Source: a bacterium (lineage in GTDB: Bacteria; Actinomycetota; Aquicultoria; Aquicultorales; Aquicultoraceae). From it: 33,274 bases of DNA. The notes beneath the pieces were generated by a model. It had not been told where the DNA came from, searched no databases, and was given only the letters and a program-made list of their open reading frames with translations. The position numbers were made by a program, and so were the translations under genes. Shown piece by piece: positions 1 through 29,191 of the stretch. The stretch spans positions 1 through 33,274 of the forward strand of contig CADDYS010000015.1 in assembly GCA_902810715.1 (NCBI GenBank), in the 5' to 3' direction. Within the stretch, counting starts at the first letter, position 1. Each line of letters begins with the position of its first letter.

Positions 1-1002
1 ATTAATTGCAAGACACCCTCCTGTACAATTCGCAGCGGTATGGCAATCTTTACAAGTTGGCCGATCCTCGCCTCTTGCCTGCGCAAGTTGAAGCAGTTGA
101 TCAATACATAGTTGATCAAGCCCATCAAAAACATCACCTATTACCAACTCAGGGAATCTATATACTAGCATTGCAAGCGCGCTACAGCCTGTAACTTGGC
201 CATTAGGCAGGAATGCCAAATTTGTTGATGCCGCATGACAACCCCAGCGATGGGATAGGATGCCTCCAACGTGTTCAGATTCTTGATACAATGGCCCAAC
301 TTCAATTCGGCAGCTCTTGTTGCTTAAGCTACTAATATATTCGGCAACATCCATCAAAGCCCGAGATAAGTTAAAGCTGTCGGTATCTGTCCATGTTACG
401 GTTCCATAAGCCGGACCAATATCCATTTGTTCAACACCAAGTCCATTCAAATAGCGGACACCCTCTGGAACCATCAGGGATAAGCCTGGATGGACTGTGA
501 CGCTTGCAACACACGAGATTCGATTTTCTAATAGAGCCCGTAAATTGCGCGAAACGACCCTATGTGTCGCTTTTCCACCTGTAGTCCTCCTATGTTTGTC
601 ATGCGACGAGGGGGTTCCATCGATGCTAAGGACAACTTTTACGCGATTTAATCGCAAAAAATCAATTATGTCTTGATTAAGTATCGTTCCATTTGTCTTC
701 AAAACGAAATGTGCTTGCATACCAGCTTCACGAGTGCGGTTTTGTGCATAACATGTTAAGCCTTCCAGAACCTTAAACTCAGTAAGTGGTTCACCCCCAG
801 TAAATGTAAACTCGATAGATTTGCCACCCTCTGCTAGGTACACAAATAAGTCGATAGCCTTTTGACCAATCTCCATACTCATGGGAGGACCTGGTAAGTC
901 TTTTGCTATGCAGTAACTACAACTCATGTTGCATGAGTTGGTTAGAAGAATTTCGCAAGATAGATGTTCATATACTGTAGATATCGATTGCCTAGTAGAC
1001 AT
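1..1002 (-). CDS. Radical SAM/SPASM peptide maturase (3' end beyond window)
   Basis: Reading the minus strand from the ATG at 1002 gives 334 open codons with no stop before the window edge. Residues 24-31 are C-N-M-S-C-S-Y-C, the CxxxCxxC that binds the radical SAM [4Fe-4S] cluster, and GGEP follows at 69-72. Near the edge is a SPASM domain: a Cys, 12 residues, Gly, four residues, Cys, then C317xxC320xxxxxC326xxxC330, which binds auxiliary clusters. This layout is typical of enzymes that install thioether or other crosslinks in ribosomal peptides. It starts 6 bases after the stop of the Cys-repeat peptide gene, so the two are almost surely co-transcribed and that peptide is the likely substrate. 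GGAGG lies about 14 bases before the ATG, a rather long spacing. The chemistry cannot be told from the sequence. Only the final residues are missing. Confidence 0.93.
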   Translation of the reverse strand, partial: MSTRQSISTVYEHLSCEILLTNSCNMSCSYCIAKDLPGPPMSMEIGQKAIDLFVYLAEGGKSIEFTFTGGEPLTEFKVLEGLTCYAQNRTREAGMQAHFVLKTNGTILNQDIIDFLRLNRVKVVLSIDGTPSSHDKHRRTTGGKATHRVVSRNLRALLENRISCVASVTVHPGLSLMVPEGVRYLNGLGVEQMDIGPAYGTVTWTDTDSFNLSRALMDVAEYISSLSNKSCRIEVGPLYQESEHVGGILSHRWGCHAASTNLAFLPNGQVTGCSALAMLVYRFPELVIGDVFDGLDQLCIDQLLQLAQARGEDRPTCKDCHTAANCTGGCLAIN

Positions 1003-1008
1003 AAAGAA

Positions 1009-1395
1009 TTACTTTCCCTCCGGCATGTTGATCGTACAACCGCCTTTACCTCGAGGCTGATTTATTGTGCAAGTCGCATTTGGCTTGTTAATTGTACAAC
1101 CGCCTTTGCCTGCGGGCTGATTAATGGTGCAACCACTTTTGCCTCGTGGCTGGTTAACTGTGCAACCGCCTTTACCCAAAGGTTGGTTTATTGTGCAGCC
1201 GCCTTGGCCTCTAGGTTGATTAACAGTACAACCAGCTCCTCTGGGTTGATTGATGGTACAACCACCTTGACCATGAGGTTGGTTTATAGTGCAGCCGCCT
1301 CCCTTTGGTTGGTTTATAGTGCAGCCGCCGGTTCCTCTAGGTTGGTTGATTGTGCAACCACCTGTCCCAGCAGGCTTATTAATAGTACAGACCAT
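1009..1395 (-). CDS. Twelve-repeat Cys peptide, candidate RiPP precursor
   Basis: The 128-residue product is Met-Val followed by twelve units of 9-11 residues, each beginning C-T-[I/V]-N-[Q/K/M]-P and mostly closing with G-x-G-G (for example CTINQPRGKGG). It has 12 Cys, one per unit, and no aromatic, signal peptide or membrane segment. The repeat begins at residue 3, so there is no leader peptide. GAGGAG sits 8 bases before the ATG, fixing the start. The units use different synonymous codons (Thr as ACT, ACA, ACC and ACG), so the peptide pattern is under selection and is not a fresh DNA duplication. The radical SAM/SPASM gene follows at once, which suggests that Cys is joined to a neighbour such as Thr or Asn in each unit; this is inference. 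The repeated GG before Cys could be a processing site. I recognise no named family. The long plus-strand frame over it is a shadow. Confidence 0.9.
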   Translation of the reverse strand: MVCTINKPAGTGGCTINQPRGTGGCTINQPKGGGCTINQPHGQGGCTINQPRGAGCTVNQPRGQGGCTINQPLGKGGCTVNQPRGKSGCTINQPAGKGGCTINKPNATCTINQPRGKGGCTINMPEGK

Positions 1396-1709
1396 AATTA
1401 TTTCTCCTCTTTAGTTTCTGGTTTTGTCCTTCATACGGTTCAGCGTCAATGCGAAACACCGTCCATTGGCAGCATTATTAGACACGCGTCTTTCTAGAAA
1501 GCCGTCAGCACTCCTGCATATTGTGTCGGTCGATCGATTAGTAATCCATGGGAGAAGACAGCATTAATCGTTGGGAAGGCATGGCTTCCCTAAATTCGCC
1601 ACACTCCATAGGGTGGCAGCCCGCGACCGCATTTGAGAATTATATTCTCGACAGGTTTTTTGTCTACTCAAAAAAATGAGATCACGAACTGCCTTTCAAG
1701 GCTTGGGTC
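1396..1709. other. Gene-free stretch with inverted repeats
   Basis: This stretch lies between the zinc-ribbon gene and the repeat peptide. I find no convincing gene. It holds three inverted repeats: GGGAAG/CTTCCC around an imperfect 6-base centre (1573-1590), GCCAC/GTGGC with a 10-base loop (1598-1617), and GAGAAT/ATTCTC around TAT (about 1635-1649). They may form a leader RNA, or be operators or terminators between the two minus-strand genes. No known riboswitch core was recognised. The strong Shine-Dalgarno of the repeat-peptide gene lies at its low-coordinate end. Confidence 0.4.
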
Positions 1710-1850
1710 CTAGCCCACCTTGTTAAAGTCCGTTCCGCTGCATTTCGGACAAGGCGGTAGAGTGTCGGTACTGTCGTCGAGAACGACAATCTGCCCGCAA
1801 TTAGTACACTTGTAAGTGCCCTTGCCTGGCTTTTCGCCTGTGGTCGGCAT
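1710..1850 (-). CDS. Small zinc-ribbon protein, 46 aa
   Basis: The protein is 46 residues and opens with MPTTGEKPGKGTYKC. Two CxxC pairs (C15/C18 and C34/C37) are separated by an acidic strand and followed by T-D-F, the layout of a single rubredoxin-like zinc ribbon. Such short proteins beginning with Thr-Gly-Glu-x-Pro-Gly are common in anaerobes and are of unknown function; they probably bind one Zn or Fe. GAGGTG lies 8 bases before the ATG and a promoter-like pair lies further upstream. The gene has the same orientation as the peptide-maturase locus, 314 bases downstream, but nothing ties it to that pathway. It is too short to appear in most ORF listings. Confidence 0.8.
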   Translation of the reverse strand: MPTTGEKPGKGTYKCTNCGQIVVLDDSTDTLPPCPKCSGTDFNKVG

Positions 1851-2257: not shown

Positions 2258-3868
2258 TCAAAAACTAAAACAATCAAGTTGAAGCTGTAGATTCTTCCCC
2301 TCTCCATGATGCTCTTTGTATAGGGCTTCTAACTCTGGAATTGCTTCTATAATGCCATCGGCGGAAACATTGGCGAGTTCCTTAGGCTCAATTTTATGCA
2401 AACCTCCACCATAAACCCTCCCATTTCCTATCATGGAATCAGCATTGACATTATTCAGTTCAACCCAGATTTTCTTAAGCAAGGTGCCGTCCTTTTTAAT
2501 AGCATCTCGCAGGAAATCCTTTGGATAGAGCACTAAGTAGGAATTAGCAACGATAGCTTTTGAATGATTTAAGATAAACCGGAAGGGCTTACGCTTATCC
2601 AAATGGCGCCCCATATATGTACAAATAAAAGGTGATACAGGCCGCTTCTCTTGCGTGTACCAGGGCGACCTGTGATTACATAAGTACCGGTTATTAATTC
2701 CCTTTTCTTTTCCAGACTCTAAATAATGCCAAAGGGTAGGATATTTTTCTCTAATCTCATGCTCTGGTAAATCGCACGAAAGTAAGAATAGCTTTTGATC
2801 TAAAATTGGATTACCAATATGATCAGCCTGAACTCTATCGACCGAAAGAAATCTTGGACTAGGAAGAATCGGTATCAAAAATTCGTCCGGTATTTCATAT
2901 TCCTTAGCTTTATTCGAGTCTAGGATAAAGAATTCATTTGAACCTGTAGCAATACCACGTTTGATATCAAACAGATTGGATAATTTAATATTTTTTTTGT
3001 CTGGCACTGCCTCACCAACATCAAGCACGAGTCTTGTCCACTTATGAACACTTCTTAATTCATCGACCGTTACTTTTTTGTAGACATTAGGGTTCCTAAG
3101 AGTACCACCATATGTAAATTCAATCTCGTGCGCTTCACCCGGCCTTGCTTTCTCAAACCATACAACCGCCGACGAAACAAGCGCATCATCAAATTGCACA
3201 TCATTAGGGTCAAAACGATGAATTCTTATAAGTTTGACTTTATTGAGCAGGTACTCTTTAATTTCTCTACCATAATTCACATCCATGAATTCGCTTGGAA
3301 TGAGCCAACCGGCTAAACCATTTTCCGGCATCCATGCGTGTGATAAGAGTAAAAAGTAGCAATAATATCCAGATAAGCCATTTAGTTTTATGCCAGTAAC
3401 CATTCGTGTAAGCGCCTGTAATCGTATTTTATCATGACTTGATAGATGATGATGCCTAACATACGGGGGATTGCAGATTACTAAGTTAGGTTTAGCCTCA
3501 TCTTTTTCTGGCAACACAGCCCTTGTAAAGTCATTTATATTCAGTTTCAGCAAAGATTTATTCCATAGCTCTATGGCTTCATTTGCATATTGTGCATCAA
3601 TCTCGTAACCAGTGGCACTCTCAATCCTTGAAGATTGAAATGTCCTTAAAAGCGCAGAATAAAACGAGCCTGTGCCAAAGGCTGGGTCTAAAAATCGGAT
3701 TTTGCTATTCTCCGGCAAAAGATCCCTTGCATATTCTATAATATCCTTTGCTAGCCCTGTAGGCGTTGCAAATTGTCCTAATTTATTTCTTTCTGCCTGG
3801 CTTTTTAAAGCGTCAAGGCGATTTTGAATTTCTAAGCGCGAATATTCTAAAAGTTCAATGGCCGTCAT
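2258..3868 (-). CDS. N6-adenine DNA methyltransferase of the XamI-type system
   Basis: This 536-residue amino-methyltransferase has GQFATP (motif X, 31-36) before the S-adenosylmethionine-binding DPAFGTGSF (motif I, 61-69) and the catalytic NPPY (133-136). That order is typical of gamma-class adenine methyltransferases of Type II systems. The long C-terminal part (about 300-500) would be the target-recognition region. It should methylate adenine within the site cut by the neighbouring nuclease, protecting self DNA. GGAG lies 7 bases before the ATG, inside the end of the nuclease gene; only 2 bases separate nuclease stop and methylase start, so translation is coupled. The nuclease is encoded first, so some other control must stop it acting before the methylase accumulates. 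Confidence 0.9.
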   Translation of the reverse strand: MTAIELLEYSRLEIQNRLDALKSQAERNKLGQFATPTGLAKDIIEYARDLLPENSKIRFLDPAFGTGSFYSALLRTFQSSRIESATGYEIDAQYANEAIELWNKSLLKLNINDFTRAVLPEKDEAKPNLVICNPPYVRHHHLSSHDKIRLQALTRMVTGIKLNGLSGYYCYFLLLSHAWMPENGLAGWLIPSEFMDVNYGREIKEYLLNKVKLIRIHRFDPNDVQFDDALVSSAVVWFEKARPGEAHEIEFTYGGTLRNPNVYKKVTVDELRSVHKWTRLVLDVGEAVPDKKNIKLSNLFDIKRGIATGSNEFFILDSNKAKEYEIPDEFLIPILPSPRFLSVDRVQADHIGNPILDQKLFLLSCDLPEHEIREKYPTLWHYLESGKEKGINNRYLCNHRSPWYTQEKRPVSPFICTYMGRHLDKRKPFRFILNHSKAIVANSYLVLYPKDFLRDAIKKDGTLLKKIWVELNNVNADSMIGNGRVYGGGLHKIEPKELANVSADGIIEAIPELEALYKEHHGEGKNLQLQLDCFSF

Positions 3869-3870
3869 GT

Positions 3871-4833
3871 CTAAACTCCAAACTCTGCTAAATCATCTAT
3901 CCGATGCTCCCAAACCCAATCAATACCCTCTGCCGCCTCATACCCCAAATAACCACTATCGAAATAACCGCAAAGGAATAATATAAACCGCACATCTTTT
4001 CCATAATTTCTCCGCAACTGAGCGATTTTAATCGCCTCTTCCTTACGGCGTTTGTTAACATTGGTGAAATCGCCAGCAGACTTAGCCTCTATAAGAAGAG
4101 GTAAATCTCCTGGCTTAGAACTAAATGGCATAACAGCAACGTCGATAGGAATATTGATTTGCGTTTCTCCGCCTTCAAGTTTGACAGGTACGTTTAAATG
4201 AAATGAAAATGTTCCGGGCTTCATTTTATTAAACTTTAATCCTTCGCCTGCACCTATATAGGTATATCCTCTTTGCTCAAGCCACTCCTTAATAAGGTTT
4301 AGCTGTCGTTTTTCCTGAGCATTTCTTATTATAGGGTCAGCTACTGCACCGCAAAGGCGGTCAGCAACAATGGTTGCAGCACGATTAATTTCTTTTCGGG
4401 TTGGTCCTTTTTCTTTCTCAAGCCAAGTGAATATGTCTTTATCAGCCAGTTGCATTATTGTTTTGCCGATTTTCTTAAGTTCCTCATCCAGCTTAGCGGC
4501 TTCCATTTTTGGCGGAACCTTACAATCTAGCTCCATGCACTTTACTAAATGAGGCGATACCCCTGCTAGGCCAATTAATCTATCCCGAGCTATGGGCGGT
4601 GCCGTTGACATGCGCAGTATAGGTAGAACAGAAGGATTCTCATGCAATATAGTAGGTGATATGTCCATTAAGTTGTGTGTTTTCTCTAGAGCTGATTCGA
4701 CTTGCTGCGTTGTTTCTACTCTCGTATCCCTATATGCCTTTGGAGCAAACTTCATAAACCAATCGTTATAACAATCAACAGACTGGGCTATATCTGATTT
4801 CCATCTTGTTGGCTTATCGGCATTTACAGCCAT
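3871..4833 (-). CDS. XamI-family Type II restriction endonuclease
   Basis: The N-terminal block W-K-S-D-I-A-x-S-V-x-x-Y-N-x-W-F and F-A-P-K-A-Y-R are as I recall the XamI family (XamI cuts GTCGAC). A PD-(D/E)xK-like active site is visible: Asp231, then E249-A-K251. I start it at the ATG at 4833 because AGGAG sits 6-7 bases before it. A GTG six codons upstream (4849-4851) would overlap that Shine-Dalgarno. The protein is then 320 residues. It pairs with the downstream methylase as a complete Type II system inside the island. The target sequence is inferred from family only; I see GTCGAC in the window at 7935, 10647 and 12276, all outside the island. Confidence 0.85.
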   Translation of the reverse strand: MAVNADKPTRWKSDIAQSVDCYNDWFMKFAPKAYRDTRVETTQQVESALEKTHNLMDISPTILHENPSVLPILRMSTAPPIARDRLIGLAGVSPHLVKCMELDCKVPPKMEAAKLDEELKKIGKTIMQLADKDIFTWLEKEKGPTRKEINRAATIVADRLCGAVADPIIRNAQEKRQLNLIKEWLEQRGYTYIGAGEGLKFNKMKPGTFSFHLNVPVKLEGGETQINIPIDVAVMPFSSKPGDLPLLIEAKSAGDFTNVNKRRKEEAIKIAQLRRNYGKDVRFILFLCGYFDSGYLGYEAAEGIDWVWEHRIDDLAEFGV

Positions 4834-4853
4834 ACTTGCTCCTAAACTCACTA

Positions 4854-5382: not shown

Positions 5383-6927
5383 ATGAATTGCTTAATTTAC
5401 CTGAGGGTTTCAACTAAAGAACAAGCTCAAACCGATGAGAAAGAGGGTTACTCTATCCCTGCTCAAAGGGAAGCCTGCCTGCGGTATATCCGGGAGCACG
5501 GCTGGAACTTTGTTGACGAATATGTTGACCGAGGCGAATCGGCCCGATCTTCTTCCCGGCCACAACTGCAAGAAATGCTCTCTCGTATTAAAAAAGACCC
5601 TGCCATTGATGCTGTGGTAGTTCATAAAATCGATAGACTTGCCCGCAATATGGAGGATCACGTTGCGATAAGAGCTATTTTAAGACGCAAAGACGTGGCT
5701 TTAGTTTCCGTCGTTGAAAATATCGAGGATTCGGCTTCTGGCCGTTTGGTAGAAGGAATCCATGCTTTAATGGCGGAATTTTATTCCGCCAATCTGGCCA
5801 TGGAAGTCAAAAAAGGTATGACTCAAAAGGCTAAGAACGGTGGTTGGCCTTGCCGCGCCCCGTTGGGTTACAAAAACGTCAAAATCAGGGTTGAAGGTCG
5901 AGAAATCTCCAAGGTTGTTATCGACGAGGAAAGAGCGCCGCTTATAAAGATGGCTTTTGAGTTGTATGCAAAAGGTGATTATTCCTTAAACCAGCTACAA
6001 GATATTCTGACCAGGAAAGGTTTAACAACGCTTGGCATTAAAGGCTATCCGTCAAGACCGATAAGCAAATCTAATCTTGCCCTGCTTCTCCAAAAGAAAT
6101 TTTATGCCGGAATTGTGGACTGGAACAATATTGAAGTCAAAGGCACCCATGAACCTTTAATCTCAAAAGACCTCTATGACAAAGTCCAAGAGGTCATTAA
6201 AATTCACGATCAAGCCGGTGAGCGAAAAAGAAAACACCCGCATTACTTAAGAGGAACAATCTATTGCGGTGAATGCGGCGCAAGGATGTCTAGTTTAACA
6301 GCAAAGGGTCAATACCTCTACTTTTACTGCTTAGGGCAAAAAAGGTCAGGTAGCAAATGCAAGCAAAAATATATCTTAGCCAGCGATATTGAAAAAGGTC
6401 TGGATAAGCTTTATAAAAAGATCGAGCTGCCCAAAGCATGGGCTGAAGAATTAAAAGAATTGGTCAGCAAGGAACTGGCCCAAAAAGAGATTGGGATTAT
6501 AAAGGAAAAAGAATTTTTGACTAAAAGAATTGCCAAATTAAATAGAGAACGAGAGCGGCTTTTAGAGGCTTACCTTGCCGAAGCCATTACTGTTGACCTC
6601 TTAAAGAAAAAGCAAGAAACATTAAATAGAGACATAGCGGATTCCGAGGTTCGGCTTGAATCTTTATCATGTAAAAATGATAGTTTGGAAGAGAAAGTTA
6701 ACCTCATTGTTCAAATGGCTTCAAATTGCCATATGGCATATAAGAAGGCTTCCCCGAAGGTCAAAAGGATGTTTAACCAGGCATTCTTTAAGAGAATCTA
6801 CATAGAAAACAAAAAGATCAACAGATATGAATTCGTTGACCTCTTTGATGCTGTTTATTCCCCTGGTTCAAATAAGAACAACTTGGTGGGCGTTACTGGA
6901 TTTGAACCAGTGACCTCTGCCGTGTGA
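5383..6927 (+). CDS. Large serine recombinase/integrase
   Basis: This 514-residue site-specific recombinase has the resolvase catalytic domain at 1-150 (Y-L-R-V-S10, with Ser10 as nucleophile; R-P-x-L-x-x-M near 59-65; H-K-I-D-R-L-A-R at 81-88). The recombinase domain follows (about 155-280), then a zinc ribbon with C295xxC298, C316 and C326, and a coiled coil at about 340-460. GAGG lies 5-6 bases before the ATG. The last dozen or so codons, ending at 6927, read antisense through the 3' half of tRNA-Val, so that tail comes from the attachment region and not from the family. The gene is the right-hand end of the island, pointing at the tRNA. It probably excises and integrates the element carrying the restriction system and perhaps the peptide locus. 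Regulation by the SOS box upstream is plausible. Confidence 0.92.
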   Translation: MNCLIYLRVSTKEQAQTDEKEGYSIPAQREACLRYIREHGWNFVDEYVDRGESARSSSRPQLQEMLSRIKKDPAIDAVVVHKIDRLARNMEDHVAIRAILRRKDVALVSVVENIEDSASGRLVEGIHALMAEFYSANLAMEVKKGMTQKAKNGGWPCRAPLGYKNVKIRVEGREISKVVIDEERAPLIKMAFELYAKGDYSLNQLQDILTRKGLTTLGIKGYPSRPISKSNLALLLQKKFYAGIVDWNNIEVKGTHEPLISKDLYDKVQEVIKIHDQAGERKRKHPHYLRGTIYCGECGARMSSLTAKGQYLYFYCLGQKRSGSKCKQKYILASDIEKGLDKLYKKIELPKAWAEELKELVSKELAQKEIGIIKEKEFLTKRIAKLNRERERLLEAYLAEAITVDLLKKKQETLNRDIADSEVRLESLSCKNDSLEEKVNLIVQMASNCHMAYKKASPKVKRMFNQAFFKRIYIENKKINRYEFVDLFDAVYSPGSNKNNLVGVTGFEPVTSAV

Positions 6928-6958
6928 AGGCAGCGCTCTCCCGCTGAGCCAAACGCCC
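6884..6958 (-). tRNA. tRNA-Val (anticodon CAC), CCA encoded
   Basis: The minus strand folds as a full cloverleaf: acceptor GGGCGTT/AACGCCC, D arm GCTC/GAGC, anticodon stem CTGCC/GGCAG with loop TTCACAC (anticodon CAC), and T arm ACTGG-TTCAAAT-CCAGT. Discriminator A and an encoded CCA (6884-6886) follow. Its 3' end abuts and overlaps the convergent recombinase gene, so it is the likely integration site of the island to the left. The matching direct repeat of the tRNA 3' end is not seen in 1-5383 and would lie beyond the window. Confidence 0.95.
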
Positions 6959-7034
6959 TTATTTGTTTTATTCTCAAACTTATTATCCCAAATTTGGGGA
7001 AAAATTCAAACGTGCAGAAGTATTGGCTTCATTT

Positions 7035-7049
7035 TATAATTGAAAAATG
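7035..7049 (+). promoter_or_regulatory. -10 box abutting a start codon (leaderless transcript?)
   Basis: A perfect TATAAT (7035-7040) ends only 6 bases before the ATG at 7047. Transcription would start at or next to the A of ATG, and no Shine-Dalgarno is visible, so the mRNA may be leaderless. No good -35 is seen near 7012-7017. A 12-bp palindrome CCCAAATTTGGG lies upstream at 6987-6998. Confidence 0.45.
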
Positions 7050-8198
7050 AGCAAGAGACGGGTCATCATCGGCATAATCATTCTTATAATTCTTATCCCT
7101 CTCGTCATAACCGCTCTTGCCCTGCAAAACCCACCGTGGGCAAACGGCCCACCGTTTATAAATATCGAGTCGGCCATCTCAAACTTTATTCTCACTCACT
7201 TTAATGTCGTAGACATTTCGGATGAGCAAAATTTAAACTCTGTGGCCAATCTTACGTATCCAAAGCTTAAGCTTCTTGATGAGGGAAAAATTAAGGTGCT
7301 TACTGCAACCGAGATAGCAAATAAGACTTATGAGAAGCCGCTTGATACAAAAGACTATTTCATCGTTGCAATAATCGATCCAGCCGATGTAGAGGGAAAG
7401 GCATATAAAGAGAGAAGAAGGGTTATCCAGGCCGTTGATGACCTTGCCGTCAAAGGCAAAATCAATGCAATTGTTGAGGCCACAGCCTCAGATATCGCAA
7501 GGGCAAACCCCTGGGGGCTAAAAGAGACCGGGCGGCTGCGCGGTGCAGGTGTTATCCGCTGCGTCATATTTGATGGCGGACACCATATCGGCACACTTCC
7601 GCTCAAGCCCGATATCCTTCTTATACCTACTATTTATTACAAGGGCAAACCCAGTGCGAGCCACTGGTATACCAGAGATACCGTCCCCTTGTACAAACTT
7701 GAAGCTGCGTTAAAAAGTGGGGCGATAGACAGTGTAATTGCGCGGTTCCCACGTGATGGGCTCCCCGTTAAAAACCCGAGCGGGATGGCGGGGCTCGTAA
7801 GACAGTCGCTTATTGATATAGTCAAGAAGAACGCCCACGATAAGGCGTCGGTGACTTTTAGAAGGCCCCCAATATCCTCGACCAACTTCGGAGAGTTCGG
7901 TGTAAGCAAGGCGTCTTTGTTTATGTCCATGGAGGTCGACCCGATGGATTCAAAAGACGCTGCAGCAAACAAGATTGCGAGCGAAGTTAAAAAGCATGAA
8001 GACCGCGACAAGAGGATCGAACACGTATATCTAGGCCTGACTTTTAGCTCAAGCAAATTCCCCCATAGGAGCAAAAAAGTGGGCTACGGAATGGATGAGC
8101 TTGAAAAATCCCTTAACAAACGCCTGCCATATAAAGTCACGGTAATGTCCGAGCCGGTAAGCACCTGGGATATTTATTTGAGCAGGATAGGATTATAG
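7047..8198 (+). CDS. Hypothetical membrane-anchored protein, 383 aa
   Basis: I do not recognise the family. Residues 5-27 form one strongly hydrophobic segment after a basic start (M-S-K-R-R), with no lipobox or clear signal-peptidase site, so this is probably an N-in signal anchor with the rest outside. The body is a mixed alpha/beta protein with conserved-looking segments VIFDGGHHIG (about 173-182) and SASHWYTRDTVPLYKLE (about 203-219) and few cysteines. It is the first gene to the right of the tRNA-bounded island and ends one base before the convergent phosphoesterase stop. Both genes look like chromosomal backbone. A hydrolase or a cell-envelope role is possible but unsupported. Confidence 0.75.
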   Translation: MSKRRVIIGIIILIILIPLVITALALQNPPWANGPPFINIESAISNFILTHFNVVDISDEQNLNSVANLTYPKLKLLDEGKIKVLTATEIANKTYEKPLDTKDYFIVAIIDPADVEGKAYKERRRVIQAVDDLAVKGKINAIVEATASDIARANPWGLKETGRLRGAGVIRCVIFDGGHHIGTLPLKPDILLIPTIYYKGKPSASHWYTRDTVPLYKLEAALKSGAIDSVIARFPRDGLPVKNPSGMAGLVRQSLIDIVKKNAHDKASVTFRRPPISSTNFGEFGVSKASLFMSMEVDPMDSKDAAANKIASEVKKHEDRDKRIEHVYLGLTFSSSKFPHRSKKVGYGMDELEKSLNKRLPYKVTVMSEPVSTWDIYLSRIGL

Positions 8199-22291: not shown

Positions 22292-22894
22292 CTACTTTGG
22301 AAGCGCGATTATCTTAAGCCGTTGTGTCTTGTATTCGTAGGGCTTACAGGTTAATAGGGTGAGTTGTTCATGCTTTGTTTGCGCATAAAGCCGGGGGCTG
22401 TTTGCATCAAGTGACTCTTGTCTGTCTACAACATAGTGATATACCTGCCCTTTATAGGCAAGCAGAACCTCATCGCCACTATCAAGAGTAAATAAAAGCC
22501 CGAATGTTGATTGGGGATTCCACTTTGTCGGGTCATAGTTATGCCCTGCAATTATAACGTTTTTTCCCTCACCGGGGAAGCCGCTGTCGGGATAATGGCC
22601 TGCTCCTAACCGCAGGCATTCCTTTGTCACGTCTGGCATCACCGGGCAATTGACTTTTATCTTGGGTATGACAAGCCAGAAGTTTCCCTGTTTAAGGATC
22701 ACCGGGTCTATTCGGGTCTCAGGAGCCAGCGCCGCATAAATTCTCGGCAGATACAGTGATATTAAAAGCACAAGGCCGGCAAGCAAGAAACTCAAGCCGG
22801 CCACTCGATGGCCTGTAAAAAAAGTCTTCTTGTTTTTTGCTTTTAACGTGCGAGCCCTTTTTGCATTTCTTTTTACTTTACTAAGCCTAGGCAT
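22292..22894 (-). CDS. Sortase (transpeptidase)
   Basis: The 200-residue protein has a basic N-terminus (1-30), one membrane anchor (31-58) and a sortase domain with catalytic H118 (I-I-A-G-H-N), C183 (L-T-L-L-T-C) and R192. The pattern L-G-A-G-H-Y-P-x-S-x-x-P-G-x-x-G is typical of class D/E-like sortases of Gram-positive bacteria. It cleaves the sorting signal of surface proteins and attaches them to the cell wall. The gene begins 9 bases after the giant surface-protein gene ends, same strand, which marks that protein as its likely substrate. No clear ribosome site is seen near its ATG, so coupling to the upstream gene is probable. Confidence 0.88.
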   Translation of the reverse strand: MPRLSKVKRNAKRARTLKAKNKKTFFTGHRVAGLSFLLAGLVLLISLYLPRIYAALAPETRIDPVILKQGNFWLVIPKIKVNCPVMPDVTKECLRLGAGHYPDSGFPGEGKNVIIAGHNYDPTKWNPQSTFGLLFTLDSGDEVLLAYKGQVYHYVVDRQESLDANSPRLYAQTKHEQLTLLTCKPYEYKTQRLKIIALPK

Positions 22895-22903
22895 GCTTAT
22901 AAT

Positions 22904-25900
22904 CTATTCTAATTGCCCTTGCCTGAAAACAAGTGCCGACCCAATAATAACTAAACTTAGTGCAAGTACCAGCACCAGGTTTGTGTTTAGCCCATAACCG
23001 GTTAATCCGCCACTAACAATATCAGTAATAGCCGGCTCCGCAACCCCAAATGGCGACAGCGACGGCGTGGCCCCTGTTATTGTATGGTTTATAGTATCAA
23101 CGGCCGTTGTTATATCCACCCATTTCTGCCCATTCCAGTGCATAAGCTTAAGGTTTCGTTCTGTTCCCTTGATTTTAGACGGGTCGTACTTAATAACTAC
23201 TGTAATCCAGCCTGCGTAACCCGCGGTCGTTGATATGTCGGTGTAATAGCCTCTGAACTTAAAGTTAGGGTCAAGTTCTTTATCATATTTCGATGTAGTC
23301 TGAACTATTGCTGAAGTTGTGCCGCCTTGCGTAACAGTACTAAAGTTTACTGAAACACCGTTACCTAAATTAACATTTATATTAGAACCAACGCTGGTTT
23401 GAACTGCTTGGAATGTTGTTGCCGATACGGTTGCACTGGCAGGGGACAAATTGCCTGCAGCATCAAAGGCCATGACATAATAACGGTATGTTGTACTTGG
23501 CAACAAACCCGTCTGAGTGTAGCTATTAGTTGAGGTACTTGCGATTATCTGATTTGTACCCGCGTTATACACATAGTATCCGGCAACTGCAATATTATCC
23601 GTCGATGCATCCCAGGTAACCTGGATGCTGTCCCCGCTTAGCGGGATGGCTTTCACATTAGCCGGAATTGAAGGTGCATGAGCATCTACTTTAAACGCCT
23701 GGGACTGCCCAGCCTCTTTGTTGCCCAATGTATCCATTGAGTAATAGTAAAACGTGTGCTGCCCTTCTAAAGCGGCAAAGTTTCCTGTATACGTCACCCA
23801 GGTACCGGTTGTCGAATCCCACTGGTAATAGGTAGTTCCTGATTTGTCTCTAGTCAATGTAATTGTCGGTATTGTCTTAAACCACCCGTTAGTTCCATCT
23901 GGGTATGTTGGGATAGTGCTAAGGGTTGTAACCGGTGCGGCCGCTTCAGGTTTTGTTGTAAAACTCCAAGCCTTATTTGCAATTAAACCACTCCCGGCTA
24001 AGTCTTTTGCTCCTGTTGAAATTGTTGCAGTATATGTTGTTGAGTAAGCCAGGTTGCTGCTTGGCTTAAATGTAGCTGTCTTTGTGGACGCATCATATGT
24101 TACAGTTCCGGCTACCGGGTTGTTTAAGCTGTCTTTTAAGCTAAAGGTCGTTGTATCAATCGTCGATGGGTTCATGGCCTCACTAAACGCCGCGTTTATA
24201 CTGGTTGAAATGCTAACATCAACTGCAGAATCAGCCGGGTTTACAGAAGTTACAGTAGGATTAGTATTATCAACCATCACACCTATAGATGCTCCAGCTC
24301 CTGGTATTTCAACATTTCCGGCAACATCCGTTGCCCTTGCCTTAACTGTATAGCTTCCGTCGGCAGGCAGGATCCAGTTATAACTCCAAGATGTTGTTCC
24401 TGTTGCCGATGCCCAAGCCCCGTCGTTTATGGATACTTCAACCTTTGCAACCCCTGAGGATGAGACATCACTGGATGACCCTGCTATAGTATAGGTCGTG
24501 CCGGTTATACGGGCCCCGTTAGCCGGTGAAGTTATGCTTGTTGATGGAGTTTTTGTATCGACCTTAAATAAAACAGTCTGAGTACTTTCTTTATTGCCTG
24601 CGGTATCTACTGAATAAAAGTAAAGTGTGTGTTGCCCCTCAGGCGCGGCAAACCCGCCGGTAGATGCCGTATAAGTTATCCAACCATTTGAATCCCACTG
24701 GTAATAAGTAGTTCCCGGTTCGCTTCTGGTTAACATAACTGATGTCAACTCTGTAAACCACCCGCTAGACCCGCTACTTGCAGGGTTTGTAGATATGGTA
24801 GTTGTTGGCGGCACCACGTCGGCGACGTTTATCGTAAAGATGGAAGTTGACTGCGTTACATTACCTGCAATATCAACCGCTTTAACATACCAGGTATGCG
24901 AGCCAACCGATAGCGGGCTTGAAGGTGTATACGAAGTTCCTGTAATGTTATCTTTACTTAACGTTCCATCGATGTACAACTGGTAGATCATGCCGGCATT
25001 GTTATCCGAGCTTGGATTCCACGAGAAAGTAGGTGCGGCTGCGTTGGTTGCGGTTGCACCATTTGATGGCGATGCCAAATCAAACGCCGTCGGAGCTTGA
25101 GTATCTACCTTAATGGTCTGGCTGCGGGTTGTTTCTACATTGCCTGCTGTATCCGTCGAGTAATAGTAAAGTGTGTGCTGTCCATCCAAAGCCTTGAAGC
25201 TCCCGGTGTATGTAGTCCAAGGCCCAGTCGTTGAATCCCACTGATAATATGTTGTTCCGGCCTCGTTTCGGCTTAACGTAATGGTCGGTGCGGTCTTAAA
25301 CCAGCCGTTGGCGTTTGCGTTAATATCTGTAGAGAACGTGGTTGTTGGTGCGATAACATCGCTAACATTGATTGTAAAGGTAGATGCAGAGTTTGTAGCA
25401 TTTCCGGCGGTATCAATTGCCTTTACATACCAGGTGTGTGACCCGGAAACAAGAGGCGAAGCAAGTGTATACGATGTCGTAAGAATGTTATCGCCGGCTA
25501 TAACGCCGTCTATGTAAAGCTGGTACTTAATGCCTGATGTGGCATCTGTACTTGCATTCCAAGAGAAAGCCGGCTTATCAATATTGGTTGTGGATGCACC
25601 GTTTGCCGGCGTGACTATATCAAATGCTGACGGGAACGTCGTGTCCACCTTATATGCCTGGCTGCGGGTTGTTTCTACATTGCCTGCTGTATCTGTTGAG
25701 TAATAGTAGAGTGTGTGCTGTCCCTCAAGGGCGGCAAAACTTGCCGAAACCTCAGTAAAGCTTGTCCAAGGCCCAGTCGTTGAATCCCACTGATAATATG
25801 TTGTCCCGGCCTCGTTTCGGCTTAATGTAATAGTCGGCGTGGTTTTAAACCAGCCGTTGGTTCCGTCGTTGGTGACTGGATTTGTAGAAATAGTAGTCGT

Positions 25901-28900
25901 TGGCGGTACCACGTCGGCAACATTTATCGTAAAGATGGAAGTTGATTGCACCGCATTTCCTGCATAATCCACTGCTTTTACATGCCAGGTATGGGAACCC
26001 GGCGAGAGCGGTGATGATAACGTGTAAGAAGTCCCGGTAATATCGTCTTTATTAAGTACATCATCGATATAGACCTGGTATTTTGCCAGACCCGAGTTGG
26101 AATCCGAGCTGGCACTCCAAGAGAGCGTTGGCTTGCTTGTATTGTCCGTAGATGAGCCGTTTGCCGGTGAGATTAAATTAAAGTATGCGGGAGCTACCGA
26201 ATCCACATTAAACGACTGGCTCTTAACCGGCTCGACATTTCCCGCCGAATCCACTGAGTAGTAATATACCGCATGTACTCCCTCTAGCGCGGTAAAGCTT
26301 CCTGCATATGCAGTCCAGGGGCCCGTGGTTGAATCCCACTGATAATAAGTGGTCCCCGGCTCGCTTCTGGTTAATGTGACCGACGGTACGGTTTTAAACC
26401 AACCGTTGGTGCCGTCATTATATGATGGGTTTGTAGTAAGAGTGGTTGCCGGTGGCATAACATCGGTTATATTTACCGTAAATGTTGATGTTGAATTGGT
26501 CGCATTCCCGGCATAATCAACCGCTTTTACATACCAGCCATGTGTTCCCGGCAAAAGGGATGAGGGAAGAGTTGCCGAGGTCCCCGTAATGTTATCCATA
26601 TATACAACGCCATCAACTACAATCTGATACTTTGCCACACCTGAGTTAGAATCAATGCTTGCATTCCAAGAAAAACTCTGAGGGCCGGCATTGGTTGTGG
26701 TCGATCCATTTACCGGCGAGACCAAATCAAACGGCCCCGGAGCTCCGGTATCTAACTTAAACACTTGAGAGCCAATGCTTTCCACGTTGCCCGCGGTGTC
26801 CACTGAGTAATAGTAAAGCGTATGCTGTCCCTCCGGCGCAGTTATGCTTCCTGTATACGTAGCCCAAGGGCCGGTTGTTGAATCCCATTGATAATATGAT
26901 GTTCCCGACTCATTTATTGAAAGCGTTATAGTCGGTATAACTTTAAGCCAGCCGTCATTGTATGGGCTTGAAGTTACCTTTGTCACCGGCGGAACAACAT
27001 CTGTAACGGTCAAGGTATAGCTGGCCGATGAAGCCGTAGCGTTTCCAGCACTATCAACCGCCACAACATCCCAGGTATACGAGCCGGGGGCTAAGGGCGA
27101 GCTTAGCGTATACGAAGTCCCCACAATACCGCTTGCTTTTAAGTTGCTGTTTATATAAAGCTGATAGGTTATGCTGGAATTTGCATCTGAGCTGGCGCTC
27201 CAGGAGAAAGTCGGTGCACTTGCATTGGTTATGGACGCGCCGCTTACCGGCGAGCTTGGAGTAAAGGCTGTTGGCGCTAAAGTATCAACCTTAAATAACC
27301 TAGACCGCAGGGCACTAACATTGCCCGCCAAATCTCGTGAATAGCAATAAAGCGTATGCTCTCCCAGCAAAGCATTAAAGCCGCTTGAGTATGTCGTCCA
27401 ACCTGCGGTTGAAGTTGAATCCCATTGATAATAAACTGTTCCTGCGTCAGAGCTGGTTAATGTGATGGTCGGCATGGTCTTATACCAACCATTAATTCCG
27501 TCTGCTGCAGCCGGATTTGTAAGTATACTAACAGGAGAGATTACGGTGTCGATATTAAATGGACCAACATGCACAGTATGCGTCCAGTTGCCTGCTACAT
27601 CCTCAGTTCTAAGATGGAAATACCAGCCGCCATCAGCAAGCGCGGGGCTAGAAGTCGAACTCTCAGATGGCCCAATATCTAAAATATTGTCAGGAGTTGT
27701 CGTTGGTGTCTGGCTCCACTCTATGGAATAGCCTGCAAGTCCGCTTATGCTATCGCTTGCCCCAGAGAAGTTAACGGTGATGATGTTGTTGTTTGACCAG
27801 CCACCAACGATATGGGTGGAGCTGGTAACGCTCGGGTCGGCAGGCAATCCAGTGTCTACCTTAAATACCTGCGACTTTTGTGCCTCTGTATTGCCATCGG
27901 TATCTACTGAATAGTAATAAAGCGTATGCTGCCCTTCTAATGCCTTGAAACTTCCAGAATAGGTTATCCATCCCGCAGTGGATGTTGAATCCCACTGATA
28001 ATATGTTATCCCCGGCTTGTCTTTAGATAAAGTAACAGTCGGTGTTGTTATATACCAACCATTTGCACCATCTGGATTTATTGGATCTACAGACGCGTAG
28101 GTTACCGGTGGCGTATAGAATACACAACTATAAACGCCTCCGCCATCCGATCCGGCATAAACTGTCTTATCCAGGCAATAACATGGAGAAGGATTAATTG
28201 ATGGTATGAGTTTATGCATAAGCCCGTTGTTGGCTTGCTTCCAACTTGCCGCTCCATTAGCAGATCTATATACTCCACCGTTAGTCCCAATAAGCACTGT
28301 CTCATCCCTGGCGTACCCAGGAGACACAGCGATGGCTAAGACATAAAGATCGGTTGGTAAAATACCGCTATTTTTCGCAGTCCAGTTTGCTCCTCCATCG
28401 GTTGATTTAAAAATGCCGCTGCCGTTGGTGCCGGCAAAGATAGTTTTGTCGTTCGCATAGTTGGGGGATATAGCAGTATCAAGGATTATCTGGTTTGCAA
28501 GGCCATTATTTACCTGTGTCCAACTTGACCCTCCGTCAGTTGACTTAAAAACACCGCTGCCGTTGGTGCCGGCAAAGATAGTTTTGTCGTTCGCATAGTT
28601 GGGTGATATAGAAAGCGATCTCACGTCTATATTTGCAAGACCGTTATTTACCTCAACCCAAGTCGAGCCGCCGTTGGTGGATTTAAAAACTCCGCCGCCG
28701 TTGGTGCCTACAAAAACAGTCTGATCAACCACATAGTTAGGAGACACAGTAACCGAACGGATATACATATTAGTAAGGCCGCTATTTACCTGCACCCAGA
28801 GGTCTCCTCTATTGGTTGACTTAAAAACTCCGCCGCCGTTGGTGCCGGCAAAAACAGTGTTGTCATTTGCAAAGTTGGGTGAACAATAGATTGCTCTAAC

Positions 28901-29191
28901 ATCCAAATTGGTAAGGCCGTTATTTACCAGAGTCCAGGTTCGGCCTTTATCTGCCGACCTATAGATTCCGCTATCCGAGGTACCTGCAAAGAGGGTGTAA
29001 TCCTTTTCAAAATTAGGAGAAATATGAACCGATTTTACGTTGCTGTTTTCAGGGCCATTGCTTGACCATACATCAGCCAGTGCAACTGAAGGGGAAATTG
29101 CAATCAAGCCAATCAGTAGAACAAATATTAGTACGACCATTAATTTGCAGCTTGTTGGATGTTTGGGCCTGCCCCAGTCAGTACTAACCAT
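22904..29191 (-). CDS. Giant multidomain surface protein, 2095 aa
   Basis: A signal peptide (about 15-40, ending A-L-A) is followed by seven propeller-like units of about 45 residues (S-P-N-Y-x-x-D-x-T-I-F-A-G-T-N-G-x-G-V-F-K-S-T-x-G-G-x-x-W), a probable seven-bladed beta-propeller (about 45-365). Then come eight YQWDS units (about 394-1784; G-T-x-Y-Y-Q-W-D-S-T ... Y-Y-Y-S-x-D-x-x-G-N) interleaved with five Ig-like units (A-P-x-x-F-x-x-x-S-P-x-x-G). A Big-type Ig domain (about 1640) and a fibronectin III domain (about 1850) follow. The C-terminus has a hydrophobic stretch (about 2072-2089) and R-Q-G-Q-L-E, like a sorting signal but without LPxTG; L-T-G-Y-G precedes it. AAGGGGTG lies before the ATG. 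It probably is an adhesin or scaffold anchored by the adjacent sortase. Confidence 0.88.
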   Translation of the reverse strand: MVSTDWGRPKHPTSCKLMVVLIFVLLIGLIAISPSVALADVWSSNGPENSNVKSVHISPNFEKDYTLFAGTSDSGIYRSADKGRTWTLVNNGLTNLDVRAIYCSPNFANDNTVFAGTNGGGVFKSTNRGDLWVQVNSGLTNMYIRSVTVSPNYVVDQTVFVGTNGGGVFKSTNGGSTWVEVNNGLANIDVRSLSISPNYANDKTIFAGTNGSGVFKSTDGGSSWTQVNNGLANQIILDTAISPNYANDKTIFAGTNGSGIFKSTDGGANWTAKNSGILPTDLYVLAIAVSPGYARDETVLIGTNGGVYRSANGAASWKQANNGLMHKLIPSINPSPCYCLDKTVYAGSDGGGVYSCVFYTPPVTYASVDPINPDGANGWYITTPTVTLSKDKPGITYYQWDSTSTAGWITYSGSFKALEGQHTLYYYSVDTDGNTEAQKSQVFKVDTGLPADPSVTSSTHIVGGWSNNNIITVNFSGASDSISGLAGYSIEWSQTPTTTPDNILDIGPSESSTSSPALADGGWYFHLRTEDVAGNWTHTVHVGPFNIDTVISPVSILTNPAAADGINGWYKTMPTITLTSSDAGTVYYQWDSTSTAGWTTYSSGFNALLGEHTLYCYSRDLAGNVSALRSRLFKVDTLAPTAFTPSSPVSGASITNASAPTFSWSASSDANSSITYQLYINSNLKASGIVGTSYTLSSPLAPGSYTWDVVAVDSAGNATASSASYTLTVTDVVPPVTKVTSSPYNDGWLKVIPTITLSINESGTSYYQWDSTTGPWATYTGSITAPEGQHTLYYYSVDTAGNVESIGSQVFKLDTGAPGPFDLVSPVNGSTTTNAGPQSFSWNASIDSNSGVAKYQIVVDGVVYMDNITGTSATLPSSLLPGTHGWYVKAVDYAGNATNSTSTFTVNITDVMPPATTLTTNPSYNDGTNGWFKTVPSVTLTRSEPGTTYYQWDSTTGPWTAYAGSFTALEGVHAVYYYSVDSAGNVEPVKSQSFNVDSVAPAYFNLISPANGSSTDNTSKPTLSWSASSDSNSGLAKYQVYIDDVLNKDDITGTSYTLSSPLSPGSHTWHVKAVDYAGNAVQSTSIFTINVADVVPPTTTISTNPVTNDGTNGWFKTTPTITLSRNEAGTTYYQWDSTTGPWTSFTEVSASFAALEGQHTLYYYSTDTAGNVETTRSQAYKVDTTFPSAFDIVTPANGASTTNIDKPAFSWNASTDATSGIKYQLYIDGVIAGDNILTTSYTLASPLVSGSHTWYVKAIDTAGNATNSASTFTINVSDVIAPTTTFSTDINANANGWFKTAPTITLSRNEAGTTYYQWDSTTGPWTTYTGSFKALDGQHTLYYYSTDTAGNVETTRSQTIKVDTQAPTAFDLASPSNGATATNAAAPTFSWNPSSDNNAGMIYQLYIDGTLSKDNITGTSYTPSSPLSVGSHTWYVKAVDIAGNVTQSTSIFTINVADVVPPTTTISTNPASSGSSGWFTELTSVMLTRSEPGTTYYQWDSNGWITYTASTGGFAAPEGQHTLYFYSVDTAGNKESTQTVLFKVDTKTPSTSITSPANGARITGTTYTIAGSSSDVSSSGVAKVEVSINDGAWASATGTTSWSYNWILPADGSYTVKARATDVAGNVEIPGAGASIGVMVDNTNPTVTSVNPADSAVDVSISTSINAAFSEAMNPSTIDTTTFSLKDSLNNPVAGTVTYDASTKTATFKPSSNLAYSTTYTATISTGAKDLAGSGLIANKAWSFTTKPEAAAPVTTLSTIPTYPDGTNGWFKTIPTITLTRDKSGTTYYQWDSTTGTWVTYTGNFAALEGQHTFYYYSMDTLGNKEAGQSQAFKVDAHAPSIPANVKAIPLSGDSIQVTWDASTDNIAVAGYYVYNAGTNQIIASTSTNSYTQTGLLPSTTYRYYVMAFDAAGNLSPASATVSATTFQAVQTSVGSNINVNLGNGVSVNFSTVTQGGTTSAIVQTTSKYDKELDPNFKFRGYYTDISTTAGYAGWITVVIKYDPSKIKGTERNLKLMHWNGQKWVDITTAVDTINHTITGATPSLSPFGVAEPAITDIVSGGLTGYGLNTNLVLVLALSLVIIGSALVFRQGQLE
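28415..28603 (-). repeat. Near-identical 50-bp repeat within propeller units
   Basis: The run encoding A-N-D-K-T-I-F-A-G-T-N-G-S-G occurs twice, 138 bases (46 codons) apart, at 28415-28465 and 28554-28603, almost base for base. It marks recent duplication or gene conversion of a propeller blade, unlike the older, diverged blades. Confidence 0.8.

Follow-up and report, generated by a model that had tools for sequence, protein, structure and literature searches.

What would a radical SAM enzyme do beside a peptide built from twelve copies of a single Cys-bearing unit? The question is raised by the left end of the DNA stretch analyzed here (33,274 nt, hereafter the window), which is contig C15 of its genome, from base 1. 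ORF translation, together with repeat and codon analysis, gave a tandem-repeat precursor of 128 aa without a leader (1009..1395, minus strand), followed on the same strand, after 6 bases (1003-1008), by a radical SAM/SPASM maturase gene recognized from its ORF, its motifs and NCBIfam and Pfam comparisons (1..1002, minus strand). The two genes are those singled out by an earlier, sequence-only reading, whose twelve-copy C-T-[I/V]-N-x-P peptide (ORF 1395..1009) and downstream radical SAM gene with CxxxCxxC and GGEP motifs are both borne out. Our answer, to which we assign a probability of roughly 55%, is that they form a substrate-maturase pair, in which a leaderless, multi-core radical SAM peptide would receive a single Cys thioether in each unit, the Asn at position +3 being the most likely partner.

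Shine-Dalgarno-like motifs stand ahead of both genes, AAAGAGGAG for the peptide and GAGGGA for the maturase, the latter within the final codons of the peptide gene. By sequence match, the region before the peptide start (AAAGAGGAGAAATAATT; 1396..1414, minus strand) is a strong Shine-Dalgarno region. A sigma-70-like promoter candidate (TAGACA-16-TATAAT, 11/12, by consensus match only) lies about 240 nt upstream of the peptide (1639..1666, minus strand). Further upstream on the same strand is a 46-aa zinc-ribbon ORF, DUF1451-like with a CxxC...CxxC pattern (1710..1850, minus strand), which may have a redox or regulatory role. Only 334 aa of the maturase are visible, the 3′ end of its gene being cut off by the contig end; as the window starts at base 1 of C15, the missing part reflects the end of the assembly. 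None of the other contigs of the genome overlaps C15 leftwards from this base, and the rest of the locus is therefore unrecovered.

The peptide reads MVCTINKPAGTGGCTINQPRGTGG...CTINMPEGK. In its 12 CT[I/V]N units (10 with Ile, 2 with Val), the Asn is followed by Q in 9 units, K in 2 and M in 1, with P coming next. Successive units are spaced 11, 11, 10, 11, 10, 11, 11, 11, 11, 9 and 11 residues apart, and most of the short linkers between them, which are rich in Gly, read xGxGG. No unit departs from C, T, N or P, and I/V is close to invariant. The chain is basic and Gly-rich; its 128 aa include 12 Cys and a single Glu, in the last linker, and Asp, Trp, Phe and Tyr are missing altogether. Its first Cys is residue 3, hence the absence of a leader. 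Mean pairwise differences between the 12 units at codon positions 1, 2 and 3 of the conserved residues were 0.06, 0 and 0.65, respectively. Of the codon differences at these residues (C, T, I/V, N and P), 199 were synonymous and 20 non-synonymous, the latter stemming from Ile/Val. Nearly every synonymous codon is used for the conserved residues (Cys 2, Thr 4, Ile 3 plus Val, Asn 2, Pro 4). The repeat array is thus old and maintained by selection at the protein level, and a chance repeat is excluded. The codon-position pattern also identifies the minus strand as the coding strand; in a longer plus-strand ORF (964-1497) the variable bases would occupy first codon positions, and it was therefore rejected as the coding frame. 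A match to JDVT-CTERM (NF033191) was an additive artefact, summing weak matches to positions 1-12 of 35; the combination of C-terminal motif, membrane helix and basic tail that defines this model was not found in the peptide, which has no hydrophobic segment.

Twelve Cys in a basic, Gly-rich chain, with a zinc-ribbon ORF upstream, could also be seen as a metal or Fe-S array or a redox thread, the enzyme making a minor change or maturing something encoded in the missing part of the locus, where further genes would go unseen since the contig ends inside the enzyme gene. We consider this improbable: single Cys residues about 11 residues apart, accompanied by invariant T, N and P, would be an unusual spacing for metal sites, and the array is tightly coupled to a radical SAM maturase.

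None of the collections searched yielded a relative of the peptide. The sequence-only reading had recognized no named RiPP family with this unit, and indeed none with CT[I/V]N was found in NCBIfam, Pfam, PHROGs, a pattern scan of some 85,000 species genomes, or viral contigs. A pattern scan for two CT[I/V/M]NxP units 11 residues apart returned one match in the ~85,000 species genomes and none in the viral contigs; with 2 mismatches allowed, it returned the window alone among 36 genomes of the class. The one match (L008:3808-3900) lies in a Eubacterium MAG, where an intergenic 33-bp repeat translates as CTINSP in one of its frames; the stretch examined contains no radical SAM gene, and we set it aside as a chance match. 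Weak tblastn matches of the peptide to VWA-domain proteins, the only ones found among plasmids, were likewise rejected. Cys-rich peptides next to radical SAM genes in the same phylum included none resembling that of the window. As a separate observation, two freyrasin-like precursors with repeated C-x3/4-D occur upstream of a radical SAM gene in genome G326 of this phylum (L074:2735-3147, minus strand). The maturase has no homologue in two other species of the genus and no close relative among about 400 genomes of the phylum.

The maturase carries CxxxCxxC at residues 24-31, GGEP at residues 69-72 and a SPASM pattern, Cx12Gx4C ... Cx2Cx5Cx3C. Describing the latter as a full SPASM pattern, as was done initially, was slightly overstated, since 6 of the 7 SPASM Cys are visible and the last would lie beyond the contig end; the Pfam SPASM score (19.1 vs. 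a cut-off of 21.5) perhaps falls short because of the same truncation. Only 23 residues precede CxxxCxxC, vs. some 75-115 in the majority of the maturases used as references, leaving no space for a fused RRE. Among NCBIfam models, the highest scores were those of PapB/freyrasin (NF047865, 162.9 bits vs. a cut-off of 340, from a sequence short of just its final residues), QhpD (TIGR03906, 144.8 vs. 453), SCIFF (TIGR03974, 118.9 vs. 425) and nif11 (115.9), and the enzyme passes none of the curated cut-offs. The CXXX system (TIGR04115) scored 84 bits vs. a cut-off of 350, with units of 9-11 residues here. SCIFF enzymes would be expected beside a six-Cys peptide of ~45 aa, vs. 12 Cys in 128 aa, and no quinohemoprotein amine dehydrogenase genes adjoin the maturase as would befit a QhpD, its visible neighbours being the zinc ribbon and a restriction-modification pair. 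The best identity over most of the enzyme was ~30% by BLAST (to a QhpD) and ~28% in multiple alignments. PADLOC matches to viperin were weak and reflect generic radical SAM similarity, and an AlphaFold model made without an alignment (pLDDT 37) was unusable.

The three top families, PapB, QhpD and SCIFF, are known thioether formers and score well above the sactisynthases (RumMC 63.9, SkfB 46), which makes a Cys thioether the likely modification. This bears on a sactipeptide-type reading, in which the bond would run from Cys to the alpha carbon of an Asn or Thr, either in its own unit or in an adjacent one. Cys, Thr and Asn are all invariant in the units, and both Thr and Asn serve as alpha acceptors in thurincin H and ruminococcin C (PMC8172795). 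Many known sactipeptides, however, bridge distant residues in hairpins, whereas a short unit is repeated here, an objection tempered by the existence of small two-ring sactipeptides (PMC13361665). With the sactisynthase models so far below the others, we regard alpha-carbon linkage as rather improbable. The same family scores, and the presence of Cys in every unit, also argue against TvgB-like chemistry on Ile/Val (e.g. a cyclopropane) or another Cys-independent change such as epimerisation, with Cys put to some other use. Its attraction is that TvgA is a Thr-Val-Gly-Gly repeat that loses 2 Da per modified Val (PMC9062424) and that T-[I/V] occurs twelve times here; we nevertheless hold it to be quite improbable.

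To place the maturase, we compared it with a small reference set, drawn mainly from plasmids. A Trp at about residue 204 (VTWTD) is shared with a CXXX enzyme, a Methylocystis freyrasin-type enzyme and most of the viral-contig enzymes described below, and is absent from SCIFF, QhpD, NlpM and PapB_L025. In a 32-row tree, SCIFF, QhpD, NlpM and PapB formed a clade with a few others (99/99), with the window enzyme outside it. Grouping of the latter with L108, L109, L134 and L052 was not rejected (p-AU 0.364), in trees that are poorly resolved and in which its branch is long. The enzyme would thus fall on the Cys-repeat side by its Trp signature, rather than by membership of a proven clade.

A profile search of IMG/VR, whose contigs can include host DNA, returned PapB-like enzymes about as close to the maturase as the named families. 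We looked beside them for ORFs on the same strand as the radical SAM gene that carry 8 or more Cys in a 40-residue stretch. Such an ORF was found at 46 of 69 viral-contig loci; a few of these ORFs may be false, as the count was automatic and purely mechanical. Among radical SAM loci of the phylum Actinomycetota the figure was 1 of 28, and among reference loci from plasmids and phages 1 of 19, and 149 kb of background sequence held a single such ORF. Of the viral-contig ORFs, 27 lie within 300 bp of the radical SAM gene and 24 have their first Cys no more than 25 residues from the start. The repeated unit varies from clade to clade (CTGTCSGGC, CNCNYC, CNTCQIC, CETGCEVTC or a freyrasin-like CX3D). 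Examples, from the series L105-L223, span L107:496-891, L109:1915-3576, L118:4212-5261, L134:2479-4098, L154:19-1629 and L185:1728-4119. In L109, L134 and L185, the repeat ORF is directly upstream of the radical SAM gene, which is the arrangement in the window, and in L109 and L185 the enzyme itself starts with a Cys repeat. Several of the loci stand among virion-like genes. Comparison with PHROGs linked the enzymes to PHROG 1802 and some of the repeat ORFs to families of unknown function; NCBIfam gave no match for any of 6 repeat ORFs tested. The full texts searched, which leave most subscription journals and preprints out of reach, held no description of a viral Cys-repeat and radical SAM pairing. 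As an aside, a Tat-like secreted protein (by eye) with a Cys-rich CNC/CTC tail is encoded directly before a radical SAM gene on a Chlorohelix plasmid (L052:986-2254).

The viral-contig group resembles the window in that its Cys-repeat ORF is often leaderless and beside or upstream of the radical SAM gene (in the window, at 6 bp and with its first Cys at residue 3), and in that its enzymes mostly have N-termini too short for an RRE and share the Trp. It differs in having 8-16 Cys per 40 aa, vs. 4 per 40 in the window peptide, and in lacking a CTINQP unit. The absence of any co-conserved homologue of the peptide-enzyme pair in the searches made would suit two functionally unlinked genes, a reading that we consider very improbable given the 6-bp gap, the internal Shine-Dalgarno motif, the selection acting on the unit and the recurrence of the layout in viral contigs. 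Co-directional and coupled in this way, with purifying selection on the units and leaderless Cys-repeat ORFs recurring beside radical SAM genes in viral contigs, the two genes very probably encode an enzyme and the peptide that it modifies.

How might such an enzyme act on twelve cores? We propose that it would recognize the repeated unit itself, since the peptide has no leader and the enzyme no RRE, and would place an identical cross-link in each of the twelve units, most likely a bond between the sulfur of Cys and a side-chain carbon of one of the unit's own invariant residues. A precedent for leaderless, repeat-directed modification exists in TvgB, which modifies synthetic TVGG-repeat peptides (PMC9062424). 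The first choice of acceptor would be the beta carbon of Asn +3, giving a CX2N ranthionine, and the second Thr +1. PapB joins Cys to the beta carbon of Asp in CX3D and tolerates CXnD with n = 0-6 (PMC9413430); the equivalent position of its Asp, +4, is Q, K or M here and so cannot be a uniform acceptor. For NxxcB, the partner of Cys is the beta carbon of an Asn (PMC13361665). The unit CFIND occurs in a freyrasin-family precursor whose neighbouring radical SAM enzyme bears the Trp, and a PapA test peptide has CSAND, so that C-x-x-N is common to these units and ours, with Asp replaced here by Q, K or M. This CFIND unit, the NxxcB precedent and the spacing tolerance of PapB make Asn +3 the best candidate. 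The assignment is nonetheless tentative, because the acceptor carboxylate is reported to be essential for PapB (PMC8172795), vs. an amide or a Thr here, and because the Asn is upstream of the Cys for NxxcB. The product would be a chain of small thioether rings with flexible, Gly-rich linkers between them, which may be cleaved at the linkers (e.g. after GG) or persist whole as a stapled thread, as the viral-contig Cys-repeat proteins may likewise do. The initial reading, a multi-core RiPP with the same change in every unit, thus holds in its outline, a multi-core radical SAM-modified peptide being the best-supported interpretation, while the Cys thioether to Thr or Asn is still something that we infer. 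To that reading our analysis adds the missing leader and RRE, a maturase outside the SCIFF/QhpD/PapB/NlpM clade that shares its Trp with viral-contig enzymes encoded beside Cys-repeat proteins, and a position on the island side of a tRNA-Val recombinase.

Radical SAM thioethers, repeat precursors, and CXXX and Cys-every-fifth systems are known ingredients; new here are the CT[I/V]N unit, a precursor without a leader and the fact that nothing is closely related. Freyrasin (PapA/PapB, a ranthipeptide) offers the closest curated enzyme family, one enzyme serving many Cys units per peptide and a related precursor with CxxND, but in its precursors a leader is present and Asp is the acceptor, within CX3D; neither the leader nor the CX3D/E motif is present in the window peptide, which has no Asp at all. 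The CXXX-repeat system (TIGR04115/TIGR04119) also pairs a radical SAM/SPASM enzyme with a Cys-repeat peptide, and the one CXXX enzyme examined has the Trp signature, but its unit is CXXX rather than the 11-residue CTINQP unit, and the visible part of the window enzyme has no TIGR04119 domain. The TVG system shares a short repeated motif, one modification per repeat and a radical SAM-SPASM enzyme active on synthetic repeats, but TVGG has no Cys and forms cyclopropylglycine, unlike CT[I/V]N[Q/K/M]P. In the NxxC RaS-RiPPs, Cys is joined to the Asn beta carbon three residues away, but in the opposite order to C-x-x-N, and the listed family is streptococcal and linked to quorum sensing. The proposed CX2N thioether would be a mirror of NxxC and a shortened PapB motif, and twelve near-identical cores with an enzyme lacking a leader-binding domain would offer a clean natural test of leader-independent, repeat-directed radical SAM chemistry. 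A broader, speculative idea, which we think unlikely, is that RRE-free, PapB-like, repeat-recognizing enzymes form a widespread system of viruses and mobile elements that staples leaderless Cys-repeat proteins, the window holding an integrative-element form with a CX2N Asn beta-carbon ring per unit and a stapled thread as product. The Cys density of the window peptide, half that of the viral ORFs or less, and the long branch and poorly resolved placement of its enzyme count against our main reading. The resemblance to viral contigs would open a class of virus-made, thioether-stapled proteins.

The peptide and maturase genes are probably cargo of a genomic island. They lie inward of a large serine recombinase (5383..6927, plus strand), whose C-terminal codons overlap a tRNA-Val (CAC) gene (6884..6958, minus strand), the probable island edge and attachment site, respectively. 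Between the recombinase and the peptide locus stand a XamI-type restriction endonuclease (3871..4851, minus strand) and a type II DNA methyltransferase (Eco57I/N6_Mtase; 2258..3868, minus strand). In the sister species G001, the tRNA-Val has the same sequence as far as its end, and nothing there matches the sequence leftward of it; in G004, of another genus of the family, the same tRNA-Val is flanked by other cargo (L046:3525-8000), which suggests that it is an island hotspot. That the island reaches base 1 is unproven, as its other end was not found; a partial tRNA match on C4 was rejected, since it lies in apparently unrelated coding sequence with no tRNA. The G004 cargo includes a type I specificity-like subunit, a ThiF-like protein and, by eye, an apparent three-Cys-motif partner pair. 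Relative to the gene beside it, the tRNA-Val of the two congeneric species (L044, L045) points the opposite way from that of the window (6884-8198) and of G004. Elsewhere in the window (22292-29191, minus strand), we noted by eye a secreted protein of 2095 aa, repetitive and ending in a hydrophobic C-terminal tail, next to a sortase-like gene. A second radical SAM system is conserved across the family, in which a peptide of 32-38 aa, such as MLSLNRDDMLWDAIVADELCAENAASCCWAICWG, adjoins a maturase of 454-463 aa (L086, L087, L088, L090, L091 and L093), and an enzyme match to this system is present in the window's own genome (G000:C54:11758-12759).
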